The notes under the pieces: generated by a model
Seen by the model: only the letters and a program-made list of their open reading frames with translations
What the model was told of the DNA's origin: nothing
Database searches by the model: none
In this document: one piece after another, positions 523 through 22,429 of the stretch
How the letters are laid out: every line of letters begins with the position of its first letter
How positions within the stretch are numbered: position 1 is the first letter of the stretch
IMG/VR virus record: IMGVR_UViG_3300027114_000023
Span: 1 to 22,904 of that record
DNA: 22,904 nt
Source of the DNA: a virus
Reading direction: 5' to 3' (one strand)
Translations under genes and position numbers: made by a program

Positions 523-710
523 GATGTTTGTCTTGTGACTGTATCCTTACAGACTATGAAGCTACACGAAAGTCAGCACACACTGACCAGTACATTGACC
601 TGTGCAATAGGTGTTTCTCCTACGTTGACGATGACCTAGATGTGGTGGATCGTCCTGACCTGGAGCACGAAGATGCTGAATCAGATGTTGACAACGATGA
701 ACTTCTGTGA
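519..710 (+). CDS. Small zinc-ribbon-like protein with acidic tail
   Basis: The protein has 63 residues from the ATG at 519, which overlaps the previous stop as ATGA. An in-frame ATG at 507 would add four residues. The pairs CLSC plus a third Cys at residues 3-8, and CNRC near residue 32, make a two-knuckle zinc-ribbon pattern around DYEATRKS. I recognise this arrangement from small early proteins of T7-like phages, but I know of no established function. Residues 38-63 are very acidic (repeated D and E), which might mimic nucleic acid or bind basic proteins. Its last codons carry the -35 element of the promoter that drives the replication genes, and its TGA stop abuts the -10 box. Confidence 0.8.
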   Translation: MRCLSCDCILTDYEATRKSAHTDQYIDLCNRCFSYVDDDLDVVDRPDLEHEDAESDVDNDELL

Positions 711-716
711 TAGAAT
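688..716 (+). promoter_or_regulatory. Sigma70-type promoter P1 for the primase-helicase operon
   Basis: The -35 element is TTGACA (688-693, perfect). The spacer is 17 bases, and the -10 is TAGAAT (711-716, one mismatch to TATAAT) preceded by TGA, giving an extended -10 TGn. The TGA is the stop codon of the preceding gene. Expected transcription start is about base 722-724, inside the palindrome TCTATATAGA. It would drive the genes from 795 onward using host RNA polymerase. Confidence 0.75.
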
Positions 717-2614: not shown

Positions 2615-4268
2615 AACTATCATCCTTGACATCGAGACAAACACAAAGCATGACACCATCTGGTGCTGTGTTACCAAAGACATTGGAGCTAAGGAAGTAA
2701 ACGTATGGACGGAACCAAAAAAGTTGAGCGAGTATCTAAGACCAAGCGACAAACTCGTTGGACACAATCTCATTTCGTTCGACTTACCGATCTTGAATCG
2801 GCTGTGGAACTTGAAGACTCACTCGAACCCAGTAGCAGATACATTGGTGATGTCGAGACTACTGGATCCGCAGATCGAGGGAGGACACAGCCTAAGCGCA
2901 TGGGGAAAGAGACTCAGCAACCATAAGGAAGACTTCACTGACTTCGATGGTGGCCTGACGCAGGAGATGATTGACTACTGTATCCAGGACGTGCATGTTA
3001 CTGACATGCTGTATCAGAAACTAAGCAGGGACCTACAAGATTGGGGAGAATCAGTTGAGCTCGAACACGAAGTTGCGAGTATTATCAGAGATCAAGAACA
3101 GCATGGATTCCTGCTGGATAGAACCAGAGCTATGTGTCTCATTACCGAATGGAAGACGAGGCTATCTGAGATCGAGGAGAATCTCCAAGCTGTCTTTCCG
3201 CCTATTGTCACTGAGCGTTATTCGGACAAAACAGGAAAGCGACTCAAGGATGATGTGGAGTCCTTCAACCCAGGCTCTCGTCAACAGATTGCTAAGAGGC
3301 TAATCTCCCTTGGGTGGAAGCCTACTAAGTTTACAGATAAGGGACAGGTGATCGTAGATGAAACAGTCCTTGCAGGAGTTGATATTCCAGAGGCTAAGCT
3401 TATCGCAGAATACCTACTCATTCAGAAGAGGGTATCTCAGGTTAGCTCCTGGCTTGATTGTGTTCAGCAAGATGGGCGTGTTCACGGTAAGGTGTTCACC
3501 AATGGAGCAGTCACTGGACGAATGACACACAACAGCCCTAATATGGCTCAGGTGCCTTCCTCTGGATCTCCATGGGGTAAGGACTGCAGAGACTGTTGGA
3601 TCGTACCAGAGGGCTATAAACTGGTTGGCATTGACGCTTCAGGGCTGGAGCTTCGTATGCTGGCACACTACATGAAGGATGATGATTATGCAAAAGCAGT
3701 GGTTGATGGTAGGAAAGAAGACGGTACTGACATTCATACCAAGAACCAAGTTGCCGCAGGACTTAAGACAAGGGATCAAGCGAAGACTTTCATTTACGCA
3801 TTTCTCTACGGAGCAGGCCCAGCGAAGATCGGAACAGTTGTTGGTGGTGGGGAGAAAGAAGGCAGGCAACTCATCAAGGCTTTTCTTGATAACACTCCCG
3901 CGCTCGAAGCACTTAGAGCAAAAGTGTCGAGGCATGCTGAGAAGGGCTGGCTTACAGGTCTCGATGGTAGGCACCTGCAAATACGTTCCGCACACGCTGC
4001 ACTCAACACACTCCTACAGGGGGCTGGTGCGATTGTAATGAAGAAGGCTCTCGTGCTCCTGGATCGTAAGATCAAGGCCATGAAACTCAGAGCACACTTC
4101 GTAGCTAACGTGCATGACGAGTGGCAGATCGAGGTGGTTGAGGAGGACGCAGAGATGGTAGCAGCAATGGGCATTCAGAGTATTCGTCAAGCTGGTGAGA
4201 AGTTTAAATTGAATTGTCCTCTTGACGGGGAAGCAAACATAGGTTATACATGGGGAGATACGCATTGA
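2604..4268 (+). CDS. Family A DNA polymerase (T7 gp5-like) with 3'-5' exonuclease
   Basis: This 554-residue replicative polymerase carries a full proofreading domain: LDIET with Asp9 and Glu11, HNLISFD with Asp60, and YCIQD with Tyr125 and Asp129. Polymerase motif A is DASGLELR (Asp344, Glu349), motif B is RDQAKTFIYAFLYG (Arg390, Lys394, Tyr398), and motif C is VHDE (His504, Asp505). Tyr398 is at the position of E. coli Pol I residue 762 and matches the Tyr526 of T7 polymerase. The protein is about 150 residues shorter than T7 gp5 (704), so the thioredoxin-binding insertion may be absent; that is inference from length only. It sits directly behind the primase-helicase with an 11-base overlap. 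Confidence 0.95.
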   Translation: MSYRTIILDIETNTKHDTIWCCVTKDIGAKEVNVWTEPKKLSEYLRPSDKLVGHNLISFDLPILNRLWNLKTHSNPVADTLVMSRLLDPQIEGGHSLSAWGKRLSNHKEDFTDFDGGLTQEMIDYCIQDVHVTDMLYQKLSRDLQDWGESVELEHEVASIIRDQEQHGFLLDRTRAMCLITEWKTRLSEIEENLQAVFPPIVTERYSDKTGKRLKDDVESFNPGSRQQIAKRLISLGWKPTKFTDKGQVIVDETVLAGVDIPEAKLIAEYLLIQKRVSQVSSWLDCVQQDGRVHGKVFTNGAVTGRMTHNSPNMAQVPSSGSPWGKDCRDCWIVPEGYKLVGIDASGLELRMLAHYMKDDDYAKAVVDGRKEDGTDIHTKNQVAAGLKTRDQAKTFIYAFLYGAGPAKIGTVVGGGEKEGRQLIKAFLDNTPALEALRAKVSRHAEKGWLTGLDGRHLQIRSAHAALNTLLQGAGAIVMKKALVLLDRKIKAMKLRAHFVANVHDEWQIEVVEEDAEMVAAMGIQSIRQAGEKFKLNCPLDGEANIGYTWGDTH

Positions 4269-4483
4269 GCTTGACACCAGATCAGATGAAGGTATGGACA
4301 GACATGATCGACTGGCTAGTACAGCAGGATGGATTTGTAATCATCGGGACCAAGGATAACGAGGTGAATGCCAAGTCATCTGTTGAGCTTGATGAAGCAT
4401 TGGAGCTAGTGGGCATGGTCTATGACATGCTTCATAACTCCCTGGAGAGTGGGGCTCCAGAGGGATTGCAAACCCTACAATAG
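4250..4483 (+). CDS. Small acidic protein between DNA polymerase and SSB, unknown function
   Basis: This 77-residue protein is not recognised. It is acidic and mainly helical, with a hydrophobic core stretch (DMIDWLVQQDGFVIIGT) and a second helix (ELDEALELVGMVYDMLHNSL). The ATG at 4250 overlaps the polymerase gene by 19 bases and has only a weak AGG upstream. A later in-frame ATG at codon 13 is an alternative. Its last codons contain the -35 element of promoter P2. Position suggests a replication accessory role, but nothing in the sequence shows one. Confidence 0.6.
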   Translation: MGRYALSLTPDQMKVWTDMIDWLVQQDGFVIIGTKDNEVNAKSSVELDEALELVGMVYDMLHNSLESGAPEGLQTLQ

Positions 4484-4494
4484 TGTGGTATAAT
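4466..4494 (+). promoter_or_regulatory. Sigma70-type promoter P2 for the SSB/nuclease genes
   Basis: The -35 is TTGCAA (4466-4471, 4 of 6 matches), the spacer 17 bases, and the -10 TATAAT (4489-4494, perfect) with TGG in front, an extended -10. The block AGTGTGGTATAATAT at 4482-4496 is identical to the one at the minus-strand virion promoter (22413-22399). The -10 lies in the palindrome ATAATATTAT (4490-4499). It would drive the SSB gene at 4529 and those after it. Confidence 0.75.
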
Positions 4495-4528
4495 ATTATC
4501 TTAACTTAACTTGTTCAGGAGAACAAAT

Positions 4529-4927
4529 ATGGAATTGAAACCTCTTAAGATTGAAGCTGACATCATGTGGGCTTTCCTTGATACACCTAACCAGATGTCT
4601 GGTAAGTATCAAGTGGATCTCTGCAACCTGTCTGACAAGGCCATCCGTGCCCTGGAGGATATTGGTGTGAATGTTCGCAACAAAGAAGGCAAAGGTTTCT
4701 TCGTAACAGCGAAGTCGAAGAACTATCCTATCCCTGCAGTGACGAAAGAAGGTAACACGATCACTGCTAAGGTAGGTAATGGCTCTCGTGGTGTTGCGTT
4801 GGTCAAGCCTTACGCCTATAAAGCCAGTGGTAAGTCTGGCGTAGCAGTAGGTATTAATAAACTCATTGTCACTGATCTCGTAGCTTACGAGGGTGGTGAG
4901 AGTGAATCAACCGATGACGCACTATAA
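4529..4927 (+). CDS. T7 gp2.5-like single-stranded DNA-binding protein
   Basis: This 132-residue protein probably coats single-stranded DNA during replication. The core WAFLDTPNQMSGKYQVDLCN followed by LSDKAIRALEDIG and GKGFFVTAKSKN resembles the OB-fold proteins of T7-like phages related to gp2.5. The C-terminus is acidic (EGGESESTDDAL), the tail that recruits replication partners in such proteins, but it ends in Leu rather than the terminal Phe known in T7 gp2.5. At 132 residues it is also much shorter than gp2.5 (232). I chose ATG 4529 because AGGAG lies seven bases upstream. The frame is open back to a TTG at 4511, but that would place the ribosome site inside the gene. It is the first gene after promoter P2. 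Confidence 0.85.
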   Translation: MELKPLKIEADIMWAFLDTPNQMSGKYQVDLCNLSDKAIRALEDIGVNVRNKEGKGFFVTAKSKNYPIPAVTKEGNTITAKVGNGSRGVALVKPYAYKASGKSGVAVGINKLIVTDLVAYEGGESESTDDAL

Positions 4928-5167: not shown

Positions 5168-5859
5168 TGCTTGCTATTCTAGATGGTGATATCTTTGTGT
5201 ATCGAATTGGATTCGCTTCTGAGGGTGAGAGCAAAGGTATTGCCATATCTAGGATGGCCTCGTTCGTTGAGGACCTGATCATGATGCCTGAGATAGGAGA
5301 CTACCAGGGCTACATTACAGGTTCAGGTAACTATCGTTTTGAGATAGCCAAGGAAGCCCCTTACAAGGGCAACAGGACTGCTGCTAAGCCTGAGCACTAC
5401 GAGCTCCTTCGGGAATACCTTGTCAGTGCGTGGGGATTCGAGCTGGTGGAAGGTCAAGAAGCTGACGATGCTATAGGGATTAAAGCCTATACAATGGACA
5501 TTGAGGATTACATGATCTATAGCATTGACAAAGACCTTGACATGATTCGTGGTTGGCATTATAATTTCAACAAGGATGACAAGTACTTTGTTGACGAGGG
5601 TGACACACTACGCACATTCTACAAGCAGGTACTCACAGGTGATCGAGTAGATAACATTCCTGGTCTTAAAGGCATTGGACCTAAGAAAGCTGATAAGATC
5701 CTTGGTGATGCTCTTACAGAGAGCGAGATGTTTAAGGCAGTACTCGAGGCGTATGACAATGACATTGAACGAATGACGGAGATGGCACAGCTACTATGGA
5801 TAAGACGAAAGGAAAACGAGATGTGGCAACCCCCAAGCTTGTCTACCTCGAATGGGTAG
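5167..5859 (+). CDS. 5'-3' exonuclease (T7 gp6 / FEN-type 5' nuclease)
   Basis: This 230-residue nuclease would remove RNA primers and help degrade host DNA, as T7 gp6 does. Visible hallmarks are ILDGD at residues 4-8 (metal-binding Asp), EGQEADDAIG (acidic cluster), YSIDKDLDMI, and GDRVDNIPGLKGIGPKKADK, the helix-hairpin-helix DNA-binding segment typical of the family. It is shorter than T7 gp6 (300 residues), but all core motifs are present. The start is TAATG-coupled to the previous gene with AAGG seven bases upstream. Its 3' end is overlapped by the next gene by 37 to 64 bases depending on that gene's start. A promoter-like sequence lies inside the gene at 5537-5565. Confidence 0.9.
   Translation: MLAILDGDIFVYRIGFASEGESKGIAISRMASFVEDLIMMPEIGDYQGYITGSGNYRFEIAKEAPYKGNRTAAKPEHYELLREYLVSAWGFELVEGQEADDAIGIKAYTMDIEDYMIYSIDKDLDMIRGWHYNFNKDDKYFVDEGDTLRTFYKQVLTGDRVDNIPGLKGIGPKKADKILGDALTESEMFKAVLEAYDNDIERMTEMAQLLWIRRKENEMWQPPSLSTSNG
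5537..5565 (+). promoter_or_regulatory. Promoter-like sequence inside the exonuclease gene
   Basis: TTGACA (5537-5542), a 17-base spacer and TATAAT (5560-5565) match the sigma70 consensus at all 12 positions. It lies within codons for the conserved DKDL and HYN region of the exonuclease, so protein constraint may explain part of the match. If active, it would transcribe the nuclease, phosphoesterase and other genes from about 5572 on. It lacks the TGn extension seen at the other promoters. Confidence 0.4.
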
Positions 5860-6641: not shown

Positions 6642-7395
6642 TTGTCAGGTTAAAGATGGAGTCGATCTCTCGTATCTTTCCTGGGTTGGTCAATATATTG
6701 TTGACAAGAAGCCAGATGTTATCATCAACATTGGAGACTTCGCTGATATGCCTAGTCTTTCTTCTTATGACGTAGGTAAGAAGAGCTTCGAAGGCAGACG
6801 ATACAAGACTGATATTGAAGTAACCAAGTATGCAATGAACCTGCTGCTTGATCCTATGAGGAAGTACAATGAGCGACAACGAAGAAACAAAGAGAAGCAA
6901 TACAAACCACACATGGTCCTCACCCTCGGAAACCACGAAGACAGAATCAACCGAGCAATTGAAAATGATTCAAAGCTGGATGGAACAATTGGCCTGGGAG
7001 ATCTTGGATACGAAGAGGCTGGTTGGACGGTCTTTGATTACCTTAATCCTGTTATTATTGACGGTGTGGTTTATTGTCATTTCTTTACTTCGGGGGTGAT
7101 GGGCAGGCCAGTGGCTAGTGCTGCAGCTCTGCTGACCAAGCGTCACATGTCTGCTGTCATGGGCCACGTGCAAGGCAGGCAGATTGCCTACGCCAACAGA
7201 GCAGATGGCAAGCAGATTACAGGGCTCTTCTCAGGCTGCTGCTACCTACATGACGAGGACTATCTAGGCCACCAGGGTAACAACTACTGGCGTGGTATCT
7301 GGATGCTGCATGAGGTAGAGGATGGTCAGTTCGATGAGATGCCAGTCAGTTTAAAATACTTGGAGAAGCGATATGGAAGTAAAGCAGATTCTTAA
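6613..7395 (+). CDS. Calcineurin-like metallophosphoesterase
   Basis: This 260-residue protein has the metal-binding signature of the calcineurin-like phosphoesterase family: PDCQ at 9-12 (Asp10), INIGDFAD (Asp42), TLGNHEDR (Asn107, His108), and later a CHFF and a MGHVQGRQ histidine motif. The usual first DxH motif is DxQ here, a form I have seen in phage members. Such proteins hydrolyse phosphodiesters or phosphomonoesters; in phages they could process nucleic acid ends or nucleotides, and the true substrate is unknown. It has no signal peptide, so it is cytoplasmic. It overlaps both neighbours (29 and 23 bases), so it is part of a tightly coupled operon leading to the reductase genes. Confidence 0.85.
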   Translation: MTRTHLVIPDCQVKDGVDLSYLSWVGQYIVDKKPDVIINIGDFADMPSLSSYDVGKKSFEGRRYKTDIEVTKYAMNLLLDPMRKYNERQRRNKEKQYKPHMVLTLGNHEDRINRAIENDSKLDGTIGLGDLGYEEAGWTVFDYLNPVIIDGVVYCHFFTSGVMGRPVASAAALLTKRHMSAVMGHVQGRQIAYANRADGKQITGLFSGCCYLHDEDYLGHQGNNYWRGIWMLHEVEDGQFDEMPVSLKYLEKRYGSKADS

Positions 7396-7648
7396 AGAGC
7401 GTGGTGATAGGTATGGTAAGTACAACAACGTAGCATGGACATCTCAGAAGCTGAAGGAGACAATGCGTGACTCCTACAACTGGCGAGAGATGAAGCTGCA
7501 CTGGACTCAGAAAGAAAGTCTTGATCTTATCTGCAACAAGTTAGCTAGAATCTTAAATGGTGATTCTAACTATAAGGATTCATGGGTAGATATTGCTGGC
7601 TATGCCCAACTTGTCGTAGACCAGCTTGACAAGCAAACCAATTTCTGA
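7373..7648 (+). CDS. Small phage protein resembling DUF6378
   Basis: This 91-residue protein has ILKERGDRYGKYNNVAWTSQ near the start and a conserved-looking helical region, KESLDLICNKLARILNGDSN then DSWVDIAGYAQLVVDQL. That pattern resembles the phage family I know from memory as DUF6378, whose role is unknown; a MazG-like all-alpha nucleotide link is only speculation. The ATG has GGAG seven bases upstream and overlaps the phosphoesterase by 23 bases. Its last codons encode LDKQTNF and carry the -35 element of promoter P3, while its TGA stop directly abuts the -10 box. Confidence 0.75.
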   Translation: MEVKQILKERGDRYGKYNNVAWTSQKLKETMRDSYNWREMKLHWTQKESLDLICNKLARILNGDSNYKDSWVDIAGYAQLVVDQLDKQTNF

Positions 7649-7654
7649 TATAAT
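7626..7654 (+). promoter_or_regulatory. Perfect-consensus sigma70 promoter P3 for the ribonucleotide reductase genes
   Basis: TTGACA (7626-7631), a 17-base spacer and TATAAT (7649-7654) match the consensus at all 12 positions. The preceding TGA (7646-7648) supplies the TGn extended -10 and is also the stop codon of the upstream gene. The first start codon downstream is at 7668, so the leader is only about 7-8 bases with AGG at 7658-7660. It should give strong host-polymerase expression of the dNTP-supply genes. Confidence 0.85.
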
Positions 7655-7667
7655 AATAGGTTCCTCT

Positions 7668-7832
7668 ATGGCATTGACGATACCTGAAATACAGGAGAGG
7701 TTAAAGCGGCTAGACGAGTTCACCTTGATAGAAGAGTTAAACATTAGTTCCGAGGACATAGTAGATCGGTTCTCTGATATCATAGAAGAACAAGCGGATA
7801 GGTTAGAAAAACTAATAGACTGGGAAGATTGA
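7668..7832 (+). CDS. 54-residue protein preceding nrdA, unknown function
   Basis: This is a very acidic helical protein (ALTIPEIQERLKRLDEFTL, then ELNISSEDIVDRFSDIIEEQ and LEKLIDWED). I recall similar short proteins beside reductase genes in marine phages, but no function is known. I chose ATG 7668, with AGG seven bases upstream. The frame is open to a TTG at 7626, but that codon is the -35 element and lies upstream of the transcription start of P3. The TGA is followed at once by the nrdA ATG. Its constant pairing with reductase would fit a regulator or partner of that enzyme, which is inference. Confidence 0.7.
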   Translation: MALTIPEIQERLKRLDEFTLIEELNISSEDIVDRFSDIIEEQADRLEKLIDWED

Positions 7833-10710: not shown

Positions 10711-10734
10711 AGCCCTCTTCGGAGGGCTTTTTTT
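10711..10734 (+). terminator. Intrinsic terminator with cUUCGg tetraloop at the convergence point
   Basis: A 7-bp stem AGCCCTC / GAGGGCT (10711-10717 and 10722-10728) closes a TTCG tetraloop through a C-G pair, the extra-stable cUUCGg loop, and is followed by a run of T at 10728-10734. It ends plus-strand transcription after the reductase operon. On the minus strand the hairpin is not followed by a U-run, so it is at most a weak stop for virion transcripts. The stop codon of the endolysin gene overlaps the T-run. Confidence 0.85.
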
Positions 10735-11722: not shown

Positions 11723-13792
11723 TTAATCTACAAAATAACCTTCAGTGAACGGATTTATACCACGCTTTAACATTTCTTTAGCAACAATAGCTCGATAGGC
11801 ATTAGGGTCTGTAACCACCTCACGCATGTACATTAGACGTATTCTGCTACGAAGTTCAGACACTATTCCCATATACACTTTAGCCTGCATACGATCAGGC
11901 AATGCCAGGAAGCCAGGGTTGCTGCCTAAGTTCTCAGCAACTTGTCTAGCAACGTCACCCATCCTATTGGACATCTCAACATACTTATCTGCTGGTAGTT
12001 TATAACCATACAGATCCCTGCTAGGAGGGCTGATCCGCAGCTCAGGATTATCTAGTACTCTACGAGTAGCATCGTTGATTACAGGAGAGACAGGCAAACC
12101 AGTTACCAGACCAGAGATAGGCAGGTTCCTCTCTTCGCCTACCACGTTGACAGATGCAGGAAGGGTCTCACGGATTACAGGAATACGAGACTTCAGATTG
12201 TTCACAATCCATGCACGTAGGTCTGGGTCTCTAACTTCACGCACCAGAGGATCTTCCAGTCTAGCAATCGTGTTCAGGATGTTAGGAGTCAAGCCATTGG
12301 TCAAACCAACTAGGAAAGATTCTACTCGATCTGGATCCTGGATAGCCAGCATCATGTCAGCTAAACTCTGAGTGAAGGTCTTGTCAAGGAAAGCTGCTCT
12401 GACCACGTCACCCATGTTCTTAGCAATGCCAGCCACTCCCTTGCCCTCACGAGCTGCTTGTTGGACAGCCTCAAATGACCCCGCCACTAGGCCTAAAACG
12501 GTCTGTACGGGCTCGATACCAGCGTAGCTTATCCACCTCTCACCCACGCCTGGGACGTTCATCTTCATCGAATACTCGGGCTTGCCTTGGGCCTGCCACT
12601 TAGCTCTTTCTGCTGGATCAGAAGGCATACCACCAGTGAACTTGTTGTCTTGCACCATGCCGTAGGCCCAGACTACCATCCCAGTACCAAGGATCTGCTG
12701 ACCAATGAAGTCACGATTCAGATCCTGCTTGAACTTGACCTCACCTTCCAGCTTCATGATACGCTCTTCAAGCTTGGCTGCAGCAGCAGGACTCTTAGCA
12801 TTAGCTAGCTTATTACGTAGGCTACCGATAGCGTCTTGTAGATTGGTAATATCCTTGACACCCTGACGATAACGAGCAAGACCAATACCTGGAATATAAC
12901 CAGCACCAAACTTAGCAATGTTAGTAGGAGTGATAATAAATGGTAGGACAAGGCTCAGCTCAGGGATATCACGAGCAGCTTGAGCCACTGCCTTAGTTCC
13001 TTTGTCGATCAGGCTATCGCCTAGCTTACTACGGAAGGTACCATAACGTGCAAAGTCATCAATCTCTTGAGCCCAGTCAGGAGCTACCTGCCTCAGGGTA
13101 TCGAATAGACGATCATCAGCTCTGGATTGTTTCAGTGCCTCGCGCACGTCATCAATAAACTTGCCTGGGGTGGTGCCACGTTTAGCTAAGAAAGTCCTAA
13201 CACCTTCGTTAGTAGAGGCCTCACGTCCAATACGATTGAGCATTACCTCTAGCTGGGCATGCTCGAACAATGTAGAGTATGCATCGTCAACACCACGCTG
13301 CAGCTTCGAGGGCCAAGCAAGCAGCATGTTAGCTGCCTTGGTAGCAGTGTTCAATTCATTGGGATCTTGTCCAGGCATCTGCAACCAGAAGTCATACTTG
13401 GACCTAGTCTGCCCATCGATCTCTACAGTATGGTCTCTGATACCACGCATGAACCGAGGAAATACTTTCTGGAAGGCGTAGCTGTAGCCCTTCAGAATAT
13501 CCATAGCCTCTCCAGGTCTACCTGAAGCAAGACGAGCTAATGGCAGTTCGATAAACCTAGTGGTGTTACCGATAATGTTCTTAGCAATGGTAGAGATACC
13601 AGACAAATAGTTGTTACGAACCATGCTGGCAAACTGCTGACGAAGGCCAGGGTTCTTCAGAGAGTCAACCATAGCCTCAGAGACAGCCTTAGCAGCCGCC
13701 TCCTTATTCAGAGATGGGTTATTCAGTGTATCGTCTACACCTCGAACTACTGACTTCAGCCACTGGATACAACGTGCGGAGAAATTTATCAT
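11723..13792 (-). CDS. Large internal virion / DNA-ejection protein
   Basis: This 689-residue protein is probably part of the internal core or ejection apparatus, by analogy with the large internal proteins encoded before lysis genes in T7-like phages. Residues 60-95 carry a pattern, NYLSGISTIAKNIIGNTTRF, common in very large phage virion proteins. Other features are predicted amphipathic or membrane-active stretches (LSLVLPFIITPTNIAKFGAG at about 275; IGQQILGTGMVVWAYGMVQ at about 365) and a central helical segment (LRNKLANAKSPAAAAKLEER). I see no transglycosylase catalytic motif. The ATG directly follows the stop of the 214-residue gene with no strong ribosome site, implying translational coupling. 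The exact virion position is inference. Confidence 0.75.
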   Translation of the reverse strand: MINFSARCIQWLKSVVRGVDDTLNNPSLNKEAAAKAVSEAMVDSLKNPGLRQQFASMVRNNYLSGISTIAKNIIGNTTRFIELPLARLASGRPGEAMDILKGYSYAFQKVFPRFMRGIRDHTVEIDGQTRSKYDFWLQMPGQDPNELNTATKAANMLLAWPSKLQRGVDDAYSTLFEHAQLEVMLNRIGREASTNEGVRTFLAKRGTTPGKFIDDVREALKQSRADDRLFDTLRQVAPDWAQEIDDFARYGTFRSKLGDSLIDKGTKAVAQAARDIPELSLVLPFIITPTNIAKFGAGYIPGIGLARYRQGVKDITNLQDAIGSLRNKLANAKSPAAAAKLEERIMKLEGEVKFKQDLNRDFIGQQILGTGMVVWAYGMVQDNKFTGGMPSDPAERAKWQAQGKPEYSMKMNVPGVGERWISYAGIEPVQTVLGLVAGSFEAVQQAAREGKGVAGIAKNMGDVVRAAFLDKTFTQSLADMMLAIQDPDRVESFLVGLTNGLTPNILNTIARLEDPLVREVRDPDLRAWIVNNLKSRIPVIRETLPASVNVVGEERNLPISGLVTGLPVSPVINDATRRVLDNPELRISPPSRDLYGYKLPADKYVEMSNRMGDVARQVAENLGSNPGFLALPDRMQAKVYMGIVSELRSRIRLMYMREVVTDPNAYRAIVAKEMLKRGINPFTEGYFVD

Positions 13793-18303: not shown

Positions 18304-19031
18304 TAAGCTTTCATAATGTACGCAAGAGCGTAGTATGGAGGCAGGTTAGCGTTGGTACCAGAGGAACCAGTAGACCCAGTAGTCCCGCTTACTGATACAC
18401 TGTGAGTGTGTGACGCATCAAAGTTAATACTGCCCACGTTAGAAGTATCAGTAGAAGCAGGAGAGGCGTTGTCAGTATAGTTACCACCCTTAGAGAAGAC
18501 ACCAGTGGCAACACCACCGTTGTACCAAGTCTCAGAAATCTTCTGCAACGAACCAGTAAGTGAAGCACTGTCTGTAGTAGCTGATGCACTGAATGTGTGC
18601 GTGTGTGCTACAGCAATTGCGTTTGCACTACCACCAGTAGCGGCTACAGCATAAGCAGAACCAGCACCTACAACAAACTTATCACGAAGGTCTGGAGTTC
18701 CATTAGAACCATTACACAGGTACCAGCCACTAGGGATAGAAGCAATGCTACCAGACCACATGATAATACCACCACTAGGGAATGCAGCAGTGGCAGCAGC
18801 AGTAGCAAAGGCAGTGGTAGCAAGCTGAGTCGTGTTAGTACCAGCAGCTGCAGTGGGTGCCGAAGGAGTACCAGTAAAGGTTGGGCTATTGATATCTGCT
18901 TTAGATGAGATAGCAGAAGCTACAGCAGTAAGCTCCGTATCAATCTCAGTACCTTTAACTAGCTTATTACTATCACCACTAGGAAGAGAATCCTTAGCGG
19001 TAAAGTTAGTGGCTTTCGTATAGTTACTCAT
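18303..19031 (-). CDS. Tail fibre / collar-domain receptor-binding protein
   Basis: This 242-residue tail protein probably contacts the host. Residues 1-45 (NYTKATNFTAKDSLPSGDSN and on) resemble the virion-anchoring start of short podovirus fibres. Residues 49-76 hold the common fibre segment SPTFTGTPSAP then GTNTTQLATTAF. Residues 85-123 are the phage tail collar domain, PSGGIIMWSGS then PSGWYLCNG and PDLRDKFVVGAG. HTH triplets at 143-145 and 208-210 could bind metal ions, as in T4-type fibre tips. The end is Gly/Ser/Thr-rich, finishing LPPYYALAYIMKA. AAGGA lies six bases before the ATG. Confidence 0.85.
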   Translation of the reverse strand: MSNYTKATNFTAKDSLPSGDSNKLVKGTEIDTELTAVASAISSKADINSPTFTGTPSAPTAAAGTNTTQLATTAFATAAATAAFPSGGIIMWSGSIASIPSGWYLCNGSNGTPDLRDKFVVGAGSAYAVAATGGSANAIAVAHTHTFSASATTDSASLTGSLQKISETWYNGGVATGVFSKGGNYTDNASPASTDTSNVGSINFDASHTHSVSVSGTTGSTGSSGTNANLPPYYALAYIMKA

Positions 19032-22400: not shown

Positions 22401-22429
22401 ATTATACCACACTTTTTACTGTTTGTCAA
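22401..22429 (-). promoter_or_regulatory. Perfect-consensus sigma70 promoter P4 for the virion operon
   Basis: On the minus strand, TTGACA (22429-22424), a 17-base spacer and TATAAT (22406-22401) match the consensus at all 12 positions, with TGG giving an extended -10. The block AGTGTGGTATAATAT equals that of promoter P2. The -35 lies in the last codons of the 61-residue membrane protein gene. The expected start is about 22394, next to the palindrome TCTATAGA, so the leader to the ATG at 22375 is about 20 bases. Confidence 0.85.

Follow-up and report, generated by a model that had tools for sequence, protein, structure and literature searches.

Bacterial sigma70 promoters carrying an extended -10 element (TGn) are an established class. 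Four sites in the phage DNA analysed here, P1 to P4, share the -35 hexamer, the spacing, the TG and the -10 of these promoters, but unlike the generic members of the class they overlap the end of the preceding gene, and their transcription starts are predicted only. Among described systems, the promoter of the E. coli ampC gene overlaps the end of the frd operon (Grundstrom and Jaurin 1982, cited in PMC11838884), and the frd terminator doubles as the ampC attenuator (PMC11838884). P1 to P4 similarly cover a gene end, whereas the attenuating terminator is a feature of frd/ampC. Promoters that cover a gene end are a known arrangement, of which P1 to P4 are a new instance. Literature searches for overlap between promoters and stop codons yielded few useful results.

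The window, that is, the whole stretch of DNA that was analysed, is an IMG/VR phage record of 22,904 bases, contained in a 58-kb contig (G001) with 100% identity over the stretches compared. Its plus strand encodes a primase-helicase, a family A DNA polymerase, a Gp2.5-like single-stranded DNA-binding protein (SSB), a 5'-3' exonuclease and a ribonucleotide reductase; a terminator-like hairpin at 10711-10728 closes this run of genes, and the lysis and virion genes lie on the minus strand. Against cultured phages, the only nucleotide-level match was 75 bases long. Pelagibacter phage HTVC104P has a DNA polymerase with 49% identity to that of the window; this phage was left out of the ortholog test because its gene order around the polymerase differs. 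A second region of the 58-kb contig (G001:C1:9493-9658) is 72% similar to a structural gene of the window (~18595-18760) and may be a module repeat or the mark of a joined assembly.

Four sites laid over gene ends

P1 lies on the plus strand at 688-716, matches the consensus at 11/12 positions and precedes the genes at 795-983 and 992-2614, the latter encoding the primase-helicase. It consists of a -35 TTGACA (688-693), a 17-nt spacer and TAGAAT (711-716), and the TGA at 708-710 is at once the TGn of the extended -10 and the stop codon of a small ORF at 507-710, which has an internal ATG at 519 and was given as 519-710 in the initial annotation. The -35 is read in this ORF as GTT GAC A.., i.e. 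Val-Asp. P3 (plus strand, 7626-7654; TTGACA-17-TATAAT, 12/12) precedes an ORF at 7668-7832, which encodes a 54-aa product, and the ribonucleotide reductase. It repeats the layout exactly: its TTGACA (7626-7631) is read as CTT GAC AAG, Leu-Asp-Lys, and the TGA at 7646-7648, which abuts TATAAT (7649-7654), is both TGn and the stop of the ORF at 7373-7648. The initial annotation had described P1 and P3 in these terms, and the description holds for both.

The same annotation had also called P4 similar. P4 (minus strand, 22401-22429; TTGACA-17-TATAAT with TGG before the -10, 12/12; preceding the ORF at 22375-22028) does lie over a gene end, that of the ORF at 22601-22416, which closes with VDKQ-stop, but the stop codon, TAA, falls within the spacer (22418-22416) and is not a TGA at TGn. 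A fourth site overlapping a gene end, absent from the earlier finding, is P2 (plus strand, 4466-4494; TTGCAA-17-TATAAT with TGG, 10/12). It precedes the SSB gene at 4511-4927, and its spacer holds the TAG stop (4481-4483) of the ORF at 4250-4483. The 17-nt spacer and a TG one base 5' of the -10 are present at all four sites, and in the whole 58-kb contig P1 to P4 are the only high-scoring sites with TG. The string TGTGGTATAATA recurs at several group promoters, namely P2 (4483-4496), P4 (22411-22399, minus strand), P3 of contig L010 (13406) and a site in G002, and is found at 6136 in L151.

Position of the stop codon in relatives

Homologs of the ORF at 507-710 were found by tblastn in L004, L005, L006, L008, L010 and G002, and P1 orthologs are present in the same six contigs. 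Including the window, the TG is kept in 7/7 sequences, the -35 is TTGACA or TTGACT in 7/7, and the -35 is read in one common frame, as (V/L)-Asp, in all seven contigs. The stop codon, by contrast, moves: counted from the first -10 base, it lies at -3 in the window, -6 in L005 and L006, -12 in L004 and G002, -15 in L010 and 0 in L008, where it is the TAA of TAAACT. The coincidence of TGA with TGn is therefore confined to 1/7 P1 orthologs. P2 with a TTGACA -35 is found in L005, L007, L008, L010, L015, L021 and L022; across relatives its stop lies at -8 or -9 and is TAG, TAA or TGA, and the TG is lost in L005 and L007. In L019 (~2662-2810) the P2 promoter is kept, and the leader before the SSB gene is longer and different from that of the window.

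At P3, only the closest clade (the window, L004, L041 and L045-L048) retains TGA-TATAAT; in the comparison of relatives that the initial annotation had proposed, this junction is therefore not generally conserved at either site. Three unrelated genes end in P3. They encode a DUF6378 protein (TGA, -3), a DUF3310 protein, which in L007 and L022 ends with TAG at the window's stop position (-3) while the TG is lost, and a glycosyltransferase-9-like (GT9-like) protein, which in L008 and L010 stops at the TAA of TATAAT (+2). Whichever of the three precedes, the 54-aa gene (7668-7832 in the window) lies directly 3' of P3. As the upstream genes have been exchanged there, P3 is a likely recombination joint. 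In the window (7649-7670) the ATG of the 54-aa gene is placed 13 bases past the -10, and in L007 (~6894-6904), L008 and L010 (~13429-13439) only 2 bases past it; with the ATG so close, a transcript initiated at P3 in the latter three contigs would carry hardly any leader or begin after the ATG. For P4 the comparison used G002 and G005, with L122-L126 excluded as too close to inform, and in both the upstream gene stops before the -35. Collectively, the alignments indicate that the conserved unit is the promoter with its downstream gene.

Reading frames and a survey of viral sites

With a 17-nt spacer, TTGACA...TGATATAAT contains stops in 2/3 frames. Frame 1 meets the TGA in the -35 and the TAA in the -10, frame 2 meets TGn, a stop when n is A, and frame 3 meets none. 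To cross the -35 and terminate at TGn, an ORF has to be in the one frame that reads nTT GAC Ann, (V/L/I/F)-Asp. The Val-Asp and Leu-Asp codons at the gene ends follow from this, since any gene passing the -35 and ending at TGn must read nTT-GAC-Ann, and their recurrence, considered as a possibly meaningful feature, was rejected as forced by the reading frame. In a neutral simulation of TGA sites, the -35 TGA terminates 33% of the entering ORFs and TGn (n=A) 24%, and 22% read through.

Unrelated IMG/VR viral contigs offer a broader view. Some of their sites are like P1 and P3 in having ORFs that end at the TGA of TGn; unlike P1 and P3, they were sampled across mixed viruses and not as an ortholog series. 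At 19/145 TTGACA-N14-TGATATAAT sites that TGA terminates an ORF of 60 codons or more; ORFs ending at the -35 TGA were counted at 12/145 sites with n=A and 17/138 with n=C, and the only stop hot spots are -22 and -3. At 381 non-redundant viral sites, the three frames contribute about equally to the ORFs that enter the -35 (34/28/38, p=0.47). ORFs in the TGn frame, however, reach that codon more often where it is TGA (17/135) than where it is TGC, TGG or TGT (9/246; Fisher p=0.002), so that stop and promoter retain some dependence on each other. The weak residue may stem from selection that disfavours reading through into the promoter.

Origin of the shared TGA

Could P1 to P4 be coding coincidences without promoter function? 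Such matches do arise, and promoter activity at the four sites is itself something we infer. A plus-strand site at 5537-5565, within the 5'-3' exonuclease gene, matches the consensus at 12/12 positions, a score equal to the best of the four, although without TG; it served as a negative control. It was rejected as a promoter: all relatives encode the identical residues DLDMIRGWHYNF, by other codons, and the hexamers are gone in L004, L005, L007, L010, L015, L021 and L022, so that the amino acids are what is kept and the match is a coding coincidence. P1 to P3 behave in the opposite way: the spacer and the encoded residues vary, and -35, TG and -10 are retained. In the seven P1 sequences, invariant columns make up 10/14 of the motif, 0/14 of the spacer and 4/90 of the upstream region, so that the -35 codons are conserved above their neighbours, as the initial annotation had proposed to check; the corresponding values are 11/14 motif and 4/14 spacer columns at P2, and 14/14 and 4/14 at P3, all motif figures being inflated, somewhat favourably, as some ortholog sites were located by the motif. 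Further, the window contains TTGACA-N15-19-TATAAT three times, one of the three being the rejected site at 5537-5565; 100 dinucleotide shuffles give an expectation of 0.00, and none of them yields three such matches. All four sites directly precede gene groups, and the same genes lie 3' of them in relatives, i.e. the promoter position is conserved. On this evidence coincidence is very improbable, and P1 to P4 are probably genuine sigma70 promoters. The single-subunit phage RNA polymerase domain (PF00940) was not found in G001 or G002, contigs that may be incomplete, as would be expected if the phage uses the host enzyme.

The initial annotation had gone further and suggested that promoters and gene termini co-evolved as a compact module. 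Selection would then hold TGA on TGn and couple the end of translation to the start of transcription, for example by a terminating ribosome that clears or exposes the promoter. The occurrence of the layout at both P1 and P3, its retention at P3 in the closest clade and the commoner use of TGA variants as stops in viruses at large speak for such coupling, the last of these being its best remaining, though weak, support. Against it, the promoter stays while the stop moves: TGA sits at TGn in a single P1 ortholog, P3 is entered by unrelated genes with other stop codons, one of them without the TG, the stops of P2 and P4 lie elsewhere, and the frames entering the -35 are random. A co-evolved module is accordingly very unlikely.

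By far the most probable reading of these comparisons is that P1 to P4 are host-type sigma70 promoters of a compact genome that overlap the ends of preceding genes, with the double use of TGA as a by-product. The near-consensus -35, 17-nt spacer and extended -10 would allow host RNA polymerase to start transcription of the next gene group. With little intergenic space, each promoter would span the 3' end of the preceding gene, which would terminate at the first in-frame stop met within it, supplied by the promoter letters themselves (TGA in TTGACA, TAA in TATAAT, or TGA at TGn when n=A). As letters and frame suffice to supply the stops, the double use would be a matter of arithmetic. For an uncultured phage group, the analysis yields several predicted promoters that are well conserved. 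It also advises caution: the promoter letters alone predict stops within consensus promoters, and such overlaps are by themselves no evidence of coupling.

A more general role is conceivable, if rather unlikely, in which consensus promoters act as stop-codon suppliers, their own TGA or TAA ending any incoming frame where recombination swaps upstream genes; a mild preference for TGA at TGn would have the same cause. One promoter receiving three unrelated genes, as in the P3 series, would be an example of such supply. At the position of P3 in L015, where no promoter is present, the start codon of the downstream gene is overlapped (ATGA) by a gene whose C-terminus resembles that of the DUF3310 gene in L007. 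The gene of L007 ends in the promoter instead, and between the two a promoter may have been gained or lost at the gene end.
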